Shown here piece after piece: positions 1,879-21,953 of a DNA stretch of 22,078 bases. The stretch comes from Amoebophrya sp. AT5.2 (Eukaryota; Sar; Dinophyceae; Syndiniales; Amoebophryaceae). Location: the NCBI GenBank assembly GCA_005223375.1, contig RXOD01004454.1, positions 1-22,078 on the forward strand, in the 5' to 3' direction. Made by a program: the position numbers and the translations under genes. Within the stretch, counting starts at the first letter, position 1. Every line of letters begins with the position of its first letter. A model generated the notes under the pieces. The model saw only the letters and a program-made list of their open reading frames with translations, was not told the origin of the DNA and did no database searches.

Positions 1879-3139
1879 AAGTATGCTGCTGCAGCTTGGC
1901 CTCGCGCTCGCGCACGCTCATGGACCGGAATTTTTGTGTAGGACCAAGTCCGTGAATGAACTCCGAACTAGATCGACGGCGATCCTTCGCGAACTCGATT
2001 GATGTTTGATTGTCACGAATTTTTCACATTCACTTCTCGTGTGCTCAGGTGCGCGCTGCTTCCTTCCGCAAAAGTGTTCAGTTCTGCTGTTGTAAGTCTA
2101 TCTTGGTGCAGAATTTGTTGCACGCGAGTCCGTGTCTGTGGAGATGCGATTGGAATGTGTGTGAGATAGAGGTGACTTGACATCAGCAACACTACGTACG
2201 TCCAAGCAAACAAAATAGTCGGCCGCTTCCTTGCGCTTCATGTCAAGGCCCTGATGCGTAGATCTCGCACCTCCGCGGCATGAACATATCCATCTAAGTA
2301 CGTGGTCCGTGCTGGCAATCGCGCTGCAACATGTCTTCTTTTGCTTGGAATCATGTGTGGTATTTGTATTTCTCGACCTCGAGTGCCCAGTGGTATGAGG
2401 AGTTGGTGGTATACGACGCTCAGCTTGATCTTCTAAAGCCTTCGGTTACTCGCTTACTGTCCGTGGTCTCTGACACGACCTACAGGACGAATGGGACCCC
2501 CATAAATTGCCTGCTTGGTTGCAAATTATACAATAAAAAATTCTCTGAAGCCCCGATCACCCCCTTTATACAACGCCGCGGATGAAGAAGGTCGCATGGA
2601 TGTGGAGTCCACAGCTGCAGCTTTTTGTGATGTATAACGTCGTGCGGTTGATGTGGATTGCCCATCAAGCCTTTAGTCACGTCCCGCCGACGGTTACGGC
2701 GCTGTAGCCATGATGTAGTTGTACTGCTTGTACGTTTTCAATTAATTCTTCAATGAATACCCGCAAATGCAGACAAAACAAAGAGCGCGTGCGCGAGCAG
2801 CACATGGACATACTACGAGAACTTCTGAACACCTAGTCATAGTCACAGTCATAGAACTAGAAGGTACGTAGACGTGCTTGCGAGGCTCGGCGACGTTTTC
2901 GACACGTGGTAGACCACTACATGATCATGAACAGACGAGCTAAAAAGCTGCACTGATTTCCGTTCGTCGCTTGTTTTTTAAGTTTACTGTTTATTAATTC
3001 AACTTGCACTAGCACTACAGACGAAGATCATACTTTGATTGCGAACGCGTCTTTTAGCCTCCGAACGTCTGGGTCTGCAGTCTACAGCTATACTTGTTCC
3101 ATTTTTTCCTCACTTACAGTCAGTTCTATCAACCACGGC
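1879..3139. other. Spacer between first and second genes; no supported gene
   Basis: About 1.26 kb of AT-richer sequence. It should contain the 3' UTR of the upstream gene and the 5' region of the next. I see no conserved protein. A T-rich stretch ending in ACAG at about 3102-3118, some 20 bases before the next start codon, has the form of a splice acceptor and could receive a 5' leader exon or a trans-spliced leader. No TATA box or terminator is convincing. Confidence 0.5.
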
Positions 3140-6100
3140 ATGCAGCAGTTACGAAACTTGATGCGGGGCCCTAGCAAGGGAGGTCGTGAGTCTTCGGGAT
3201 CAGGGTCAGCTGGTGAGGGTAGTGCTGGTGGAGGGGCTGCTCGTATTTCGGACCCCAACGCAATGGGCGCCTTCCGCGACGTGAAACAGGTATAGCCTTT
3301 ATCTTCATCATCTAGATCTACTACCTCGTTATCGTTAAACATCCACATGTACATCATTCATCTGCTCATCGGAGAGCAGTGCTCAAACTACATCAAACCT
3401 ACAAAATCAGGTCGTCCGCGCCCAGATCCCTGAGTCGGCTACCACCGTGCTGCTTGGTGAGTGCACCCACGGGACGGAGGAGTTTTACCGCCACCGCGCG
3501 GAGATCAGTAAGTACCTGATCGAGGTGCGGAAGTTCAAGGTGGTGATCGTGGAGGCCGACTGGCCCTTCATGTGGCACGTGAACCAGTACATCCACCGCA
3601 AGAAGGTGAACATGTTCCCGGACAACGTGCGATTCCCGGACTGGATGTGGCGCAACCAGCCCTTCGCGGAGCTGGTCGAGTGGATGCGGCAGATGAGCCA
3701 GACCGACAACGCCTGCTACCTTTTCGGCATGGACTGCTACTGCAAGGAAGAGTCACGCGCGGACCTGCTGCGTTGGCTCGACAACCACGACCCGGCGTTG
3801 AGCAAGGAGCTGCGCCAGACCTGCTTCCCGCGCGAGCGCCCGGACAAGTGGCCCGAAATCCTCTCCAAAATACAGTGGGGCCGGAGCGGGGGCGGCGGGG
3901 GCCGAAAAAATAGTACTAAATCTTCCACTGGTGCATCCTCTCCGCAGGTGATCAGCGGCAGCAACTTGACGCGCGACGAGGTGTACCCGGGAAGCTCGAA
4001 ACTGGATCGGTTCAACGCCGAGCAGAACCTGGAGTGCATGATTGCCGCGGACGAGTACTACACGAAGCAGCGGCTGGAGCCGCCGGGCTCCCAGGCAAGC
4101 TGGAACGCCCGCGACCAGCACATGGCGACCACGATTCTGCGGCTGAAGCACCAGGGCCGCGACACCTTCCAGCTTCCAAAAGGCGAGGCGGAGCTGAAGA
4201 TCATCGTGTGGGCGCACAACTCGCACGTCGGGGACTCCACGGCGACGCCCTCCGGCGGGGTCGACTTCGAGCGGAACGAAACTTGGAACCTGGGCCAGAT
4301 GTGCAAGTCCGTGCTGGAGAACGTCTTCGTCGTGGGCTTCTACAGCTTCTGCGGCGAGGTGCGCGCGGCGAAGGAGTGGGGCCGCCCGGGGCAAGTGATG
4401 CAGCTGCAGCCCGCGTTCGACAACTCGCTCGAACACCAGCTGCACACGCTCTTCCCGAAGAAGAGCGCTTTCGTGGCCCTGGACGCGAAGGCGAAAAACT
4501 GGTACCGGGCGCCGCCGGAGTTCGCGCTCCCGTGCGAGTACGAGTGCGTCTATCCGGGAGTGCGCGCGACGGAGAACTCCAGCTCCAAATCTAAGCTGGT
4601 GTTTGGCGACACCGGTACTGCGTCGCCGGCTGCACGCCGGCCCCCACTGAAATCCTTCACAGCGGTGGAGCGCGTCGGCGATCCCCGGTCGCAGGTGTGG
4701 CGCCTTCGCGCGAACAACTGCAGAGGCAAAGAGTCCTTTCGCTGGAACGACGAGTGCTGGGTTGACGAGTACACCGCGAACCGTTCGGTGTCCGTACACG
4801 CCCTGCCCGCGGAGGTGCTGCAGCGGCTCCGCGCGGACCCCTTGCGGTGGCTGAACTGCGCGCCCGTAATGCAACGCTGGGTCGGTGTCCAGTACCACCC
4901 CGAAACGGAGCTGCAGTCGCACTATGGAGAGATGCTTGCGAGCCAGGCCTACAACCTCCTCATTTTCGTGGACGAAACCACCGCGCTGGACGTGGACCTG
5001 AAGCCGACGAAGTCGAAGTTTGTTGACGCTGATGGAGGTAGTGGGGGGGCGGAGGAGGTGTCCGCCGCGGCGCAAAAGCGGCTGATGCGGGAGTACGCGA
5101 AGCTTTTGAAAGACCCGCCGCAGGGCGTGGAGGCGCACCCGCTGGAGGACAACATCCTCGAGTGGCACTTCCGGCTGACGGGAAACCAACCACCGTACAC
5201 GGGCGGGAGGTACCACGGGGTGCTCGAGTTCCCGAAGGCCTTCCCGATGCAGCCGCCCTCGATCCGCATGCTCACGCCCTCCGGGCGGTTCGAGATCAAC
5301 AAGCGCATCTGCCTCTCCATGAGCGACTTCCACGCGGAATCCTGGAACCCAGCGTGGACGGTCGAAAAGATCCTCGTCGGGCTGATGTCCTTCATGTACG
5401 AAGAGAGCACCGAATCCATCGGCAGCCTGCTGGACGCGTTCGAGACGCGGCAGCGCTACGCCAAGGAGAGCGAGTTCTTCAACCGCGAGAACGAAATCTA
5501 CACGCAGCTGTTCCCGGCAACATCAACGACGTCCTCCTCGTCGGGCGGGCCAGTAGTTGCGGAGATGAACTCTTCGTCGAGCACTTCCGAGGCCGGCAGG
5601 GCGAACAACAAGCGGCCGCGCAGGACCTCGAGCGCGGACGTTGTCGCTGGCGCGGCCGCTACTCCAAAAATGTCTCCCGCGGAGGACCACGAGGAAAACG
5701 ACGGGATTGCGTGTCGTTTTTGTCTTGGAAACGAAGGCTCGCTGGTGGCGCCGTGCGAGTGCCGGGGCACGAATCAGTACGTGCACCTCGCGTGCCTGCG
5801 GCAGTGGCAGAAGTCCGTGATGCTGACCCAGTCCACGCACCCGAAGTTTCAGACGAGGATCGACGCGATCTGCAACATCTGCGAGCGGCCGTTCAAGGAC
5901 AAGTTTCGGCCGAGGGACCGCAAGGAGGCGGTGCTTGAGTTCGCCGGCCCCGAAATGGCGCGGCGGCTGAAGAAGGGGAACCTGCTCGTCTCCTCGGAGA
6001 GGGAGTCGCGGGAGTCGACGGAGGCGATGGAGAAGAACCCGGAGCTGCGCATCCATCTGGAGCATTGGACGTACGCGGTGTACCTGATCGCGAACGACGT

Positions 6101-6671
6101 CGCGGTGCCGAACCCGGGGGAGTCCTCCTCCAGCAACAGCCGGGACGGCGGCGTGCTGGCGGTGAACCTGGTGCAAAAGCTGCCGAACGGGCCGCCGGCG
6201 AAGGTGTCGAACTCGCTGCCGGGGTACCGAACGCGGCAAATCAGCCCGTTGAACACGTGGAACCGGCTCTACAAGAGCCGGGTGGACAGTTTGCGCAGCG
6301 TCGCGCAGGTGGAGCACTTCATCGGCGGCCCGGTCGAGCCGGACGACTGCCTGGCGCTGGTGTTTCTGCCGAAGCTGGACGCGCGGTTCCGGCAAAAGGC
6401 GAACCACGTGCGCAACGGCATGTTCTTCGGGAACTTGCAGACCATCGCGGACCTGGCGGAGATGGCGCACGCAAGTAACAAGGACAACAGGACGAAGCTG
6501 TACATTTTCTGGGGGTACGCGGCGTGGAACACCAGCCAGCTCTTCGCGGAGATCGCGAAGCGCCACTGGGGCCTCGGAGTGGAGGAGTACGACTTCGACC
6601 CACTACCCACCTGGGACGACGTAGTCATGGACGTCTCAATGGCCAAGGAGTCCGAGTACTCCAAAAATTAA
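3140..6671 (+). CDS. Four-domain fusion: erythromycin esterase-like / Ubc6-type E2 / RING-CH E3 / AlgH (UPF0301)
   Basis: Exons 3140-3289 and 3411-6671 join in phase 0 to give 1136 residues, ending in TAA. Residues 60-576 match the erythromycin esterase family: GECTHG (Glu67, His70), EADWP, WAHNSHVGD (His319, His322) and the late motif YHPETELQSHY at 545; these include the family's metal/catalytic-site Glu and His positions. Residues 602-750 are a Ubc6/UBE2J-type ubiquitin-conjugating domain with ILEWHF, YHG, catalytic Cys684 in RICLS, then DFHAESWNPAW. Residues 817-880 are a RING-CH (MARCH-type) finger: Cys818, 821, 832, 834, His842, Cys845, 871, 874. Residues about 925-1110 resemble AlgH/DUF179, with GGPVEPD at 1022 and GYAAW at 1085. 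No membrane anchor is seen although Ubc6 enzymes are usually tail-anchored. The hydrolase substrate is unknown. ATG 3140 is the first Met in the exon 1 frame. One oddity: the HPN-equivalent Asn of the E2 is Ser674. Confidence 0.93.
3290..3410 (+). other. Intron of the fusion gene (GT...AG, 121 bases, phase 0)
   Basis: Donor CAG|GTATAG and acceptor AAATCAG|GTC. The upstream frame hits TAG in the first bases of the intron, while the downstream frame resumes exactly at the residues that lead into the esterase GECTHG motif, so splicing is needed for a complete domain. Confidence 0.88.
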
Positions 6672-10195: not shown

Positions 10196-11767
10196 GTAAG
10201 ACGACCGGAGACAACTCGAGCTGGGACCTAGTTGAGGTACTAAGCTCACTTCAACCATTGTGGTCGAGACGTTGACCTTGACGTAGATACCTGGAACAAG
10301 AAGATTGATGAATAGGATTGGGATAGTACTACAAAACCCCCAGAAGTACACTCGATCTCGAGGGCCGCAAACGCGAAGACTTCAGTCATGCAGTTTCGAT
10401 GAGTAGACTGAACTGCTTCAAGGAGCAAAGACAAAACTTCACGAAGTAAAAAAGTAAAGAGCACAGTGGTAAGAAAGTACTTAAGTAGTCAAAGCATCCG
10501 ATTCCGATCGCGCAGGCTAGTGTGGGAAGTGATCCGCATCATGATACGTAGTCCATGAGCATGCTGCGTCTCCGACTTGTCGCTGTAGTTGAACTAGAAA
10601 GATGACAATGTACACCATGACCATGATCACCAAACTGCATCAATCTTTTGGTTTGCTTTTTGCGTATATCGCACCATACCGATGCCCTTACAACCCATAG
10701 CGAAGTGATCGACCATGTCGAAAGCTCGCAATTCTGACTCTAACGTTGAAGTTGAATTTGTATAACAAACTACTCTACCCCTGTAGTCTGTACGATTAGT
10801 TTTGGTTCAGCATGATGCTTTCGCGCATGCAGCCGTACACTTCTTTCTTATTCTACGTGGTAGCCGTAGCTCAGTATGTCTATGTCACCTTCACCGTCCG
10901 AACTGGATCTGGTCCTGGTGGAGGTGGGACAACAGCAATTACAAGGCAACAGAAATGATGCCGGAGTTTGATTTTTTCGCCCGTCGCTCCTTAACAACAA
11001 GTATAACAACGACAACAAAAAAAAAGAGAAGGAAGCAGGCGAGAAGGTGTCACCCGTCTTAGCCTGATTAGATTCCGCTTGTGCTGATGCTGGAACTGGA
11101 TCTCCACGTGTTTCAAACCACAGCACTCGACGTCTGTTTTTCTGGAAAAATGTGATCGGCTCTCTCCACCTCGAGCGTCGGTGTGTACTGGTCTTTGAGA
11201 GTGATGAGAGATCACAAGAAGGTGGCCAGCGTTTTTCTCGTTTCGGTGATACGGAAACCACATTGACTGTAGATGTGCCGCCTCCTGTCGGCGACATACT
11301 AAGTAACTTTTTCTCCCCTGCTGCGTTGTCGATGTTGAGCTATCATTCGTGACTTCTGATAAATATCGTGCCAGGAACAGGAACTGTTGAAAACCAACTG
11401 GTGCGTCGCACCTAGGATCCTGTCTTCTACAGCCATAGGATACTGTGCTGCAGCAGATTCAACTGCATTCATTGTTGATTTTAAAAACCCCCTGCGTCTT
11501 GTGGGCCGCATTCTCTTTGTATTCTTGACCTTGCCATTTCTAATTTTTTCTCCGATAGTACCGAGCATGCTTGCCATGAACAAGAGGCCGCGCAGGGTCA
11601 ATCTCAAGTCCAGCACTCACCACCCATTCATTTTATATATCTCATTCGTTCCTCGTAGCCTAGAAGCCGCGTAGCCCCAGAAAATAAATCTACTGCCCCT
11701 TCCTACCCGTACCACAAGCGATAGGCAACCCGGAAAAGCGTCATTTTCAATCTTCACCTACGTGTAC
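10196..11767. other. Large spacer; no supported gene
   Basis: About 1.57 kb, mostly AT-rich and of low coding quality on both strands. It presumably holds the 3' UTR of the coiled-coil gene and the promoter or leader region of the RING gene. A 105-codon open frame on the minus strand (11616-11299) and a plus-strand frame with a hydrophobic segment (11387-11674) are not supported by family resemblance. No tRNA or other RNA gene is seen. Confidence 0.5.
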
Positions 11768-13021
11768 ATGAGGAGGATGCACCCAACGATTTTTTTCGAA
11801 GAGGAATCCGGCAGGCGGGAGGAGGGGGGCCGCGGTCGCAGCTCTCGAGCCTCAGATGATCCGTCACGTACCCGTGCCGAACAAGAAACGCTCTTGCCAC
11901 AAGATCGACATCCAGGAGAGAAGGAAACTGCAGAGCACGTCGAGGACCAAACTACGGGCAAGAACAAGTCAAGATCAATCCAGATCGAGCTTACTCGTCG
12001 TCGCACCTCCTCGTCGTCGACTGGAACCCGACAAGCACCCGCGGAGAATCACCCGAAAAATTCCGGCGAGGATACAGCGAAGGTCGCGCGGTCCTCTGAT
12101 GAAGATTCGGATAGTGGAAGTACCTTTACCGAGCCACTCGCGCCTCAATCAACGGCGACGCGTATGTCAACAATCGAAGAGTTTTTAGAAGAGCCACCTG
12201 CTCTTGTGCTCGCCGGTCGTGAAACGTCGGCTTCTGCAGCTGCAGCTTCGTCCGCTGCAGCTTCACCAGCGTCCTGGAGCAGAAGAAGGAGCAATGGAAC
12301 CCACCAGCAGCGCACCGGGATGAACATGAGAAGCGCCTCGGACCATTCCTCCAACATCAGAACTGAGGATGTTGCTCAGCACGACGCCCCAGGAACAGCC
12401 GCCGCCACTGGTGCGACGACGACAACGACTGGGAAGATGTTGAACGAGGTTCCGGAGCAGCAGGGCTCGGAGGAAGATTTGGAGTGCCCGATTTGCATGG
12501 ACTCGATTCAGAAGGAGGCGGCGGCGATGCGGTGCGCCAACAAGCACTACTGCCACGCGCAGTGTCTCTGCCAGTGGATTCAGTCCTGCCGGCGGCAGAG
12601 GATAACCCCGACCTGCCCGATCTGCCGCGCCGAGGTCCAGTTCCACGCCCGCAATTTGAAAGACTATCTCGACGCGAGCCGGAACGACGGGGGCACCTCC
12701 AGCAGTGCAGGCGGCGACGGCGCAAAAGGCAACACAAATGCCGCTACTTCTATGGACGAGGAAGAGCGCGGGTTTTTTGAGACCATCTACAATAACCTGG
12801 AACAGCAGGAGAACGGAGATGGGTGGGGCGGGGTCTCGTGGGAGAACGTCGAGTGGGGCGCAGGGCTGCTGGCCTGGCTGGGCATCGGCTTCTTCTCGGG
12901 CATGTCCACGCACGGAGGAATGATCGTGCCACTGGCAAGCAGCACGGACAACAGGATCGCGCAGACGGTCGGGTTCGCGGCAGGAGTTCTCACAAGCCTG
13001 TTCTTGATCAGCCGCCGTTGA
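11768..13021 (+). CDS. RING-H2 ubiquitin ligase-like protein with C-terminal membrane segments
   Basis: A single open frame of 417 residues from ATG 11768 (a second Met is at residue 4) to TGA. Residues 1-230 are disordered: Arg/Glu-rich, then Ser/Ala/Thr-rich. Residues 240-286 form a RING finger: Cys240, Cys243, Cys256, His260, His263, Cys266, Cys283 and Cys286, with the usual Trp270 and CPIC pairs at both ends, so it should bind two zinc ions and recruit an E2. Residues about 364-390 and 399-414 are hydrophobic and Gly-rich, ending in SRR, compatible with two C-terminal membrane passes. RING plus two C-terminal helices recalls RNF5/RNF185-type ER or mitochondrial-membrane ligases, though in those the RING is N-terminal. 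E3 activity is a family expectation; location and substrates are inference. Confidence 0.85.
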   Translation: MRRMHPTIFFEEESGRREEGGRGRSSRASDDPSRTRAEQETLLPQDRHPGEKETAEHVEDQTTGKNKSRSIQIELTRRRTSSSSTGTRQAPAENHPKNSGEDTAKVARSSDEDSDSGSTFTEPLAPQSTATRMSTIEEFLEEPPALVLAGRETSASAAAASSAAASPASWSRRRSNGTHQQRTGMNMRSASDHSSNIRTEDVAQHDAPGTAAATGATTTTTGKMLNEVPEQQGSEEDLECPICMDSIQKEAAAMRCANKHYCHAQCLCQWIQSCRRQRITPTCPICRAEVQFHARNLKDYLDASRNDGGTSSSAGGDGAKGNTNAATSMDEEERGFFETIYNNLEQQENGDGWGGVSWENVEWGAGLLAWLGIGFFSGMSTHGGMIVPLASSTDNRIAQTVGFAAGVLTSLFLISRR

Positions 13022-20997: not shown

Positions 20998-21521
20998 TCT
21001 ACTATCTTCTGCTGGAATCCCTGACCAGCATTTGCATTGTCATTGTCTCTACAAAGAAACAAACAGCAAGAGCACCGACCGGAAACTTGAAACACGAACG
21101 CTAGCACCTGAGCCTGAGGAGCCGTCATGCTACCGGTCACCTGGACCGGACAGGAACTCCCTACTTCTAGGTTTTGACCGCGCCCCGAAGGTCTTGGCAA
21201 CGTAAAAAAAAAAATACCTGTTTAAAGGTCAAATCATAATTTGAAGAGAGTGCGATCTCTGCTGAAAACGCTGCGTCAGCTCCTGCAGTGCCTTGTGCTT
21301 GTTCGACAACAGTATTTATAGTAGAGTTAGTTTACGTCGTCGACCAACATCTTATTTGAGTTCCGAGAAGATGAGCAAGAGCCTCTACAGCGACGAGGAC
21401 CACCACCTCGTAGAGATCATCAAATACGGAGCGGTAGCTTCGCCTCCAGCTATATTTCGCAAGCGAGCAAAACAGAAACACGCAGACTGCGGCCGGGTAG
21501 TATCAATTGATCTAAATCACG
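20998..21521. other. Spacer or leader before the TMEM107-like gene
   Basis: About 520 bases. It holds an A11 run at 21203-21214, followed directly by the shared motif ACCTGTTTAAAGG (21216-21228), then a T-rich stretch and a coding-like open frame starting at ATG 21371 (see separate entry). No other gene is seen. Confidence 0.5.
21371..21433 (+). other. Possible upstream ORF or 5' exon before the TMEM107-like gene
   Basis: From ATG 21371 the sequence encodes MSKSLYSDEDHHLVEIIKYG then Ala, and reaches a donor-like GCG|GTAGCT at 21434. The composition is coding-like. A canonical acceptor in phase with the TMEM107 frame is missing: the AG at 21500 leads to an in-frame TAA. It could be an upstream ORF, an exon joined through a non-canonical intron, or chance. 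Confidence 0.3.
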
Positions 21522-21953
21522 ATGGTCGCGGCGACTCCGTGGCACCTGCATGTGGGGCAGAGTGTCTTCATCCCTGCGCGGTACATTCTGGCGCTCGGGC
21601 AGGTGACCTTGAACGGCATCTGCTACCGCTACCCCCAGCCCTACCTGCGGGCCGCGCTGCCGTTCGGGAACCACACGGACAACGAGGCGGAGCTCCGCAC
21701 CATCGTGTTCTTCACGTTGTTCTTCCTGATACTCGAGCTCATTCTGTTTCTGTTCGGGTTGTCGCTCTACAAGAGAGGACTGCAGCTCACGCAGACGGTG
21801 TTTCACTTTTTCGGCGCGGTCCTCTCGCTGTTCGTGGTTCTGTCGAGCGCGCACTACTACTGGTGGGCACACTTCCTGCTCTTCACAAGTCTGGTCCCCT
21901 TCCTGCTGCAGGTCGGCTTCGACGCAACCGTGTTCGCTATGCGGATTGCGTAG
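21522..21953 (+). CDS. TMEM107: TMEM107-like ciliary transition-zone membrane protein
   Basis: The frame from ATG to TAG encodes 143 residues, close to the roughly 140 of animal TMEM107. Four hydrophobic segments are visible at about 15-36, 58-83, 90-114 and 115-140, the expected topology. The N-terminal FIPARYILAL matches the family's L-V-P-S-R-F-L type start of helix 1, and ALP before the loop, the LELILFLFGLSLY segment and the final FDATVFAM region align along the whole length. TMEM107 belongs to the MKS module of the transition zone at the base of cilia, where it helps gate membrane protein entry; that role is known from animals and inferred here. An in-frame TAA at 21513 sits just upstream, supporting the ATG as start unless a non-canonical intron is used. 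Its presence implies a flagellated stage. Confidence 0.82.
   Translation: MVAATPWHLHVGQSVFIPARYILALGQVTLNGICYRYPQPYLRAALPFGNHTDNEAELRTIVFFTLFFLILELILFLFGLSLYKRGLQLTQTVFHFFGAVLSLFVVLSSAHYYWWAHFLLFTSLVPFLLQVGFDATVFAMRIA

Follow-up and report, generated by a model that had tools for sequence, protein, structure and literature searches.

The question raised by a 22,078-nucleotide stretch of DNA from Amoebophrya sp. AT5.2 (contig RXOD01004454.1, positions 1 to 22,078; hereafter the window) is whether one of its genes encodes a single polypeptide in which an erythromycin esterase-like domain, a Ubc6-type ubiquitin-conjugating enzyme (E2), a RING-CH ubiquitin ligase (E3) domain and an AlgH domain follow one another and, if so, what such a protein might do. 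A preliminary description had proposed this arrangement, encoded after one in-phase splice, and had read it as a self-contained ubiquitination enzyme coupled to a hydrolase. The fusion was confirmed as a real observation, and a self-contained ubiquitination enzyme still appears to be the best reading of its anatomy. The gene model comprises the following elements.

3140..3289, + strand: exon 1, residues 1-50, a Gly/Ser-rich N-terminus; predicted from an ATG and a phase-0 GT-AG intron.
3290..3410, + strand: intron of 121 nucleotides, GTATAG...AATCAG, phase 0; predicted from sequence.
3411..6671, + strand: exon 2, which contains the four domains and ends in TAA; from the open frame and Pfam.
3091..3119, + strand: pyrimidine-rich tract with a terminal AG, 20 nucleotides 5' of the ATG; read directly.

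Exon 2 is enclosed by a single open frame of 1,110 codons (3339-6671), the chance openness of which was put at about 6e-15 by a crude estimate from base composition. Pfam analysis of this 1,110-residue frame recovered all four families that the preliminary description had named for such a search, in the order erythromycin esterase (PF05139, E=2.6e-63, 215 bits), ubiquitin-conjugating E2 (PF00179, E=2.7e-19), RING-CH (PF12906, E=8.9e-10, 39 bits against a cut-off of 21.6) and AlgH (PF02622, E=9.7e-9, 38.8 bits), all above curated cut-offs and all within one exon. The GC content at third codon positions (GC3) was 0.76-0.94 across every exon 2 segment and linker as opposed to 0.43-0.50 in flanking DNA; in exon 1 it was only 0.54, weaker support than that for exon 2. 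Joined in phase, the two predicted exons give the expected product of 1,136 residues, in which all four domains share one chain and E67, H70, H319, H322 and C684 stand where they had been placed. Exon 2 has no ATG ahead of the catalytic Glu67 and His70, so an upstream exon, exon 1 or another, is needed. The pyrimidine-rich tract is a possible splice acceptor, either in cis or, putatively, for a spliced leader.

The E2 and RING-CH domains, which would together form the ubiquitination unit, were located as follows.

5079..5414, + strand: E2 core, residues 607-718 (PF00179; UBE2J2 2f4w, E=5.5e-44); the PDB match widens to 5052-5522.
5304..5345, + strand: E2 active-site loop RICLSMSDFHAESW with Cys684, Ser686, Asp689 and His691; from structure alignment, with Ubc6 roles after PMC11649903.
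5712..5882, + strand: RING-CH domain, residues 818-874 (PF12906; Doa10 2m6m, E=9.6e-8).

The closest solved structures to the window E2 were UBE2J2 (E=5.5e-44) and Ubc6 (3.1e-42), which together with the intact Cys684 and active-site residues bears out its assignment to the Ubc6 type. No UBE2J1 chain was among the matches listed for this domain, which may have a UBE2J1 origin. The residues GRF (675-677), R682, C684, S686, D689, F690 and H691 are kept in J2-matching positions, and the catalytic Cys, the GRF motif and the active-site insertion with its general-base His that characterize J2-type enzymes are thus all present. The GRF motif and the loop R-x-C-x-S-x-S-D-aromatic-H are common to Ubc6, UBE2J2 and the window E2, whereas the latter has no apparent membrane anchor, carries a Thr-flap with one additional residue and Ser for Thr, and sits between other domains. 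According to PMC11649903, Ubc6 and UBE2J2 put ubiquitin on serine, and Cys87, Ser89, His94 and Thr121 of Ubc6 matter.

Comparable genes were sought in the source assembly (50.7 Mb, 2,759 contigs, possibly incomplete); counts from it are lower bounds, and one copy means one copy found. A separate UBE2J-type E2 is encoded there (C1565, L041:1333-2705), the first exon of which is 40% identical to the window E2 and the best structure matches of which are UBE2J2 and Ubc6. It ends in a hydrophobic tail with a 19-residue hydropathy of 2.34 and has Ala opposite Ubc6 Thr121 in its Thr-flap. In the window protein no transmembrane segment was found by hydropathy alone, the best 19-residue mean being 1.12. 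The role in endoplasmic reticulum-associated degradation that had been brought up for Ubc6/UBE2J enzymes is thereby weakened: in its classical membrane form it is unlikely because the fusion has no apparent membrane anchor and a separate tailed UBE2J-type E2 exists, which probably covers the membrane role. Two further observations concern E2 sequences. On the minus strand of C119 (L176:1245-5612) a 1,456-codon open frame has an E2 domain near its N-terminus and represents another very long E2 protein, and the E2-RING linker of the fusion contains KRPRR (residues 784-788, window 5610-5624), which resembles a nuclear localisation signal.

All eight C4HC3 ligands of the RING-CH domain (C818, C821, C832, C834, H842, C845, C871 and C874) were read in the window protein, as the preliminary description had it. 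The eight ligands are common to Doa10 and MARCHF6, whose partner is Ubc6/UBE2J2 (PMC11649903). The multi-pass membrane body of Doa10/MARCHF6 has no counterpart in the window protein by hydropathy, and the window protein carries its own E2 and AlgH instead. At E<=0.001 the source assembly yielded seven RINGv loci. The contigs bearing them and those bearing E2 domains overlap only in the contig of the fusion gene, and E2 with RING-CH was therefore found once, in a neighbour comparison that covered the RING-CH class of RING. At one RINGv-type locus, C2046 (L003/L174), the RING-CH exon is followed downstream by a further frame that looks FHA-like by its motif.

These features suggest a ubiquitin ligase that is soluble and consists of one chain, within which a J2-type E2 would work in cis with a RING-CH domain of the Doa10/MARCH class, a reading to which we assign a probability of roughly 0.6. 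It is the simplest one because J2 E2s are known to pair with RING-CH ligases and the two are here connected by a tether of about 63 residues. In the mechanism envisaged, a ubiquitin-activating enzyme (E1) would charge Cys684 with ubiquitin, the tethered RING-CH domain would activate the E2~ubiquitin conjugate, and ubiquitin would pass to a hydroxyl (Ser/Thr) or a lysine of the target. The bond attacked by the esterase would most likely be an ester, a lactone or the like, in either the target or a small molecule that is bound, and this step would determine what the ligase receives. For the AlgH domain a part in recognition or assembly is most likely. From this arrangement we infer the activity in cis, the chemistry of the linkage, the substrate and the roles of esterase and AlgH.

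Several points weigh against such a ligase. The gene is known from DNA alone, with exon 1 and the splice being a plausible GT-AG prediction only, and neither the esterase-E2 nor the E2-RING-CH join has a second example in the source assembly. The structure predicted for the E2-RING-AlgH part had a predicted local distance difference test (pLDDT) value of 37.4 only, and action between chains is as plausible as contact of the RING with the E2 in cis. Few RING-CH chains were among the solved matches in either of two rankings: the window RING-CH alone gave Doa10 (2m6m, 9.6e-8) and then the MARCH-type 2d8s (2.2e-6), and a profile of the three RING-CH-AlgH genes introduced below ranked 2d8s (1.7e-7) above Doa10 (9.9e-7), so the domain matches RING-CH partners as a class and not Doa10 alone. 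The Thr-flap of the window E2 is one residue longer than that of Ubc6 and UBE2J2 and places Ser719 opposite the important Thr121 of Ubc6, which retains a hydroxyl but not the flap length. As a result hydroxyl selectivity is not certain, and hydroxyl chemistry is likely but not assured. We know of no established biochemical role of AlgH. Lastly, transfer is stimulated most by RING constructs of Doa10 or MARCHF6 that include a C-terminal element, which these RINGs need for full effect (PMC11649903); none was seen in the window protein, in which no search aimed at it was made.

The AlgH domain belongs to the AlgH/UPF0301 family by sequence and differs from it in being fused behind RING-CH.

5976..6620, + strand: AlgH-like domain with GNLLVSS...GGPVEP...GYAAW (PF02622); Pfam core 6309-6572, outer limits approximate.

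Pfam covers positions 54-130 only of the 157-position profile, above cut-off, and the first part of the domain was assigned by alignment with two divergent paralogues, a profile of which alone found the window AlgH at E=3.5e-8 over most of its length. Both paralogues, C1478 (L169:4270-7505, minus strand) and C1005 (L171:3526-5690), encode RING-CH and then an AlgH-like region. In C1478 the AlgH has a long insertion and is apparently split by an intron, and in C1005 the RING-CH has a long insertion between ligand pairs one and two. The AlgH-like regions of C1478 and C1005, each interrupted by introns or insertions, scored 18.6 and 19.3 bits with Pfam, both below the cut-off of 27, and a PF02622 search of the source assembly matched the fusion gene only. 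No E2 or esterase match was found on the two contigs. Searched with the RING-CH-AlgH part of the window protein, C1478 was matched at E=1.1e-21 (42% over residues 4-132, comprising RING-CH and the start of AlgH), and the profile of all three modules also matched UPF0301/AlgH structures (2do8 at E=1.5e-4, others more weakly). Leave-one-out profiles were run against 2,175 six-frame frames from 64 overlapping loci of the same genome, including four other RINGv loci; the whole frame of C1005 was recovered at E=4.7e-6, and the best other frame reached 0.34. The evidence for a shared module has its own gaps. Single stretches of C1005 reached only 0.0022 and 1, and a genome search with its AlgH frame returned only itself. 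From C1478 only 42 residues of the second AlgH exon were recovered (E=9.5e-6); its first AlgH half did not appear even at E<=10 and was assigned solely by pairwise alignment with the window. RING-CH-AlgH is nonetheless likely to be a recurring module of the source genome, with AlgH strongly diverged in C1478 and C1005. The RING-CH-AlgH half of the architecture is thus probably shared, and the esterase-E2 and E2-RING-CH joins were found only in the window gene. Symbiodinium also has RING-CH proteins that carry a similar region downstream. The Arabidopsis relatives of the domain, DUF179-1 and DUF179-3, are listed interactors of the chaperone CLPC1, within a group of unknown proteins suggested as adaptor candidates (PMC8889267). 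They too associate with a degradation machine, while the window AlgH is fused behind RING-CH; because of these relatives and its occurrence with RING-CH, the domain probably serves in recognition or assembly.

The N-terminal half of the protein contains the esterase.

3519..4979, + strand: erythromycin esterase-like domain, residues 87-573 (Pfam); Glu67/His70 lie just upstream, His319/His322 inside.
3459..3470, + strand: catalytic Glu67...His70 (ECTH), both invariant in 71 bacterial rows.
4209..4226, + strand: catalytic WAHNSH with His319 and His322, each present in all 71 bacterial rows.
4545..4829, + strand: 95-residue insertion that most of the 71 bacterial rows lack.

Both the profile match and the catalytic Glu/His set of the erythromycin esterase superfamily are present. 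Scores with the two NCBIfam resistance-gene models listed were far below cut-off (EreD 17.5 bits against 800, EreB 12 against 750), so the domain is a relative and not a resistance Ere. At least 120 loci matched by pattern, of which 80 (L049-L128) were compared and all 80 matched the esterase domain. Removal of nine in which the match was partial or the frame cut gave the 71 rows of the conservation count, and nine more (Mycobacterium, Nocardia, Legionella, Ralstonia, Burkholderia) were left out of the structure alignment, the best-scoring 48 of the remaining 62 being used. The window esterase is 31-36% identical over these 48 rows to bacterial multidomain esterases of the same subfamily (PRTase-Ere, PRTase-hydrolase-Ere, PCMT-Ere). 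A Pfam scan for partner domains covered ten of the 80 proteins, which were picked mainly for long N-termini and are not a random sample. Seven join the esterase to another enzyme domain, as the window gene does, but at the N-terminal side, unlike the window protein, and no E2, RING or AlgH partner was found in the ten at E<=0.001. The window esterase differs from the structures of EreC (6xcq, 6xcs), 2qgm and BcR135 (2rad, 3b55) by the 95-residue insertion and the eukaryotic fusion. The family of this bacterial-type esterase is listed among horizontal acquisitions of a dinoflagellate (PMC11453091).

The domain has also changed: 28 of 102 conserved columns depart from the consensus of the 71 bacterial rows, and the insertion was predicted with pLDDT mostly below 50. 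On account of the departing columns and the insertion, substrate specificity has at least probably changed, and the same changes would fit a catalytically unused scaffold or ligand-binding sensor that leaves the E2-RING half as the only enzyme. We consider this unlikely, as the catalytic Glu and His residues and the invariant residues around them are all retained, which is not expected under neutral drift; the esterase is probably active. It is similarly improbable that the E2-RING pair modifies lysines or itself only, as a plain quality-control ligase that captured two bacterial domains. The Thr-flap deviates from the J2 pattern, and this flap matters for serine reactivity in Ubc6 (PMC11649903), but His691, Ser686 and Asp689 are retained and RING-CH stands with AlgH-like sequence in three genes, so that their pairing is not a one-off.

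A more specific proposal, which we hold to be doubtful, would couple the two chemistries: the esterase would free a hydroxyl from a lactone or ester of a small molecule, lipid or modified protein, and the J2-type E2 with its own RING-CH would cap it with ubiquitin, or else the esterase would reverse that ester. If true, one protein would edit and ubiquitinate non-lysine or non-protein targets, and AlgH would be a eukaryotic E3 module. Less credible again is a writer and eraser in one, in which the esterase strips the oxyester-linked ubiquitin attached by the E2, although the attached domain does come from a family of ester hydrolases. To our knowledge no member of the erythromycin esterase family acts on ubiquitin. 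J2 enzymes form ubiquitin oxyesters (PMC11649903), but the reported cleavers of such bonds are deubiquitylases (PMC9527308). An assembly chimaera or a run-on of neighbouring genes, with no polypeptide made as one, would suit the single occurrence of the esterase-E2 and E2-RING-CH joins and the uncertain exon 1 but is highly improbable in view of one stop-free exon with coding GC3 through all linkers and RING-CH followed by AlgH-like sequence on two further contigs.

BIRC6 is an E2-E3 hybrid. Both it and UBE2O unite an E2 with ligase function in a single chain, as the window protein does, but their E2 is of a different type, and the window protein has RING-CH in place of their ligase parts. That UBE2O is such a hybrid is stated in PMC6162346, and the excerpt of PMC6249206 contains nothing on an esterase or AlgH. 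The claim that no protein of this architecture had been described agrees with our searches of the literature, in which none of the listed papers, judged mostly from the listing, appears to describe such a combination; relatives of the fusion may well exist in other dinoflagellates. New here are the spliced leader in the assembly, the separate tailed UBE2J-type E2 and the two additional RING-CH-AlgH-like genes. A Ubc6/Doa10-type pair in one soluble chain would allow a J2 E2/RING-CH unit to be purified and assayed without membranes, and Ser/Thr ubiquitination by such pairs is a live question (PMC11649903). The fusion puts a bacterial-type esterase inside the ubiquitin system, and the little-understood AlgH family gains a concrete setting, that of RING-CH ligases, with three such genes in a single genome.

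Exact copies of the dinoflagellate spliced leader were found at 18 places in the source assembly (10 forward and 8 reverse, on 17 contigs), as opposed to 0 for a backward control. The leader sequence is given in PMC6027434, which reports trans-splicing in all examined dinoflagellates, including Amoebophrya, and also in Perkinsus marinus. The leader therefore places the genome in the dinoflagellate-perkinsid lineage and supports an alveolate source. Elsewhere in the window, positions 11675-13018 (+ strand), which lie 5 kb downstream of the fusion, encode a RING-finger protein whose C-terminal part has hydrophobic stretches (zf-RING_2, 22.6 bits, below cut-off). Positions 21516-21950 (+ strand) encode a TMEM107-like membrane protein (PF14995, E=1.9e-14). 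The TMEM107 family is tied to cilia, and this gene suggests a ciliated or flagellated source.
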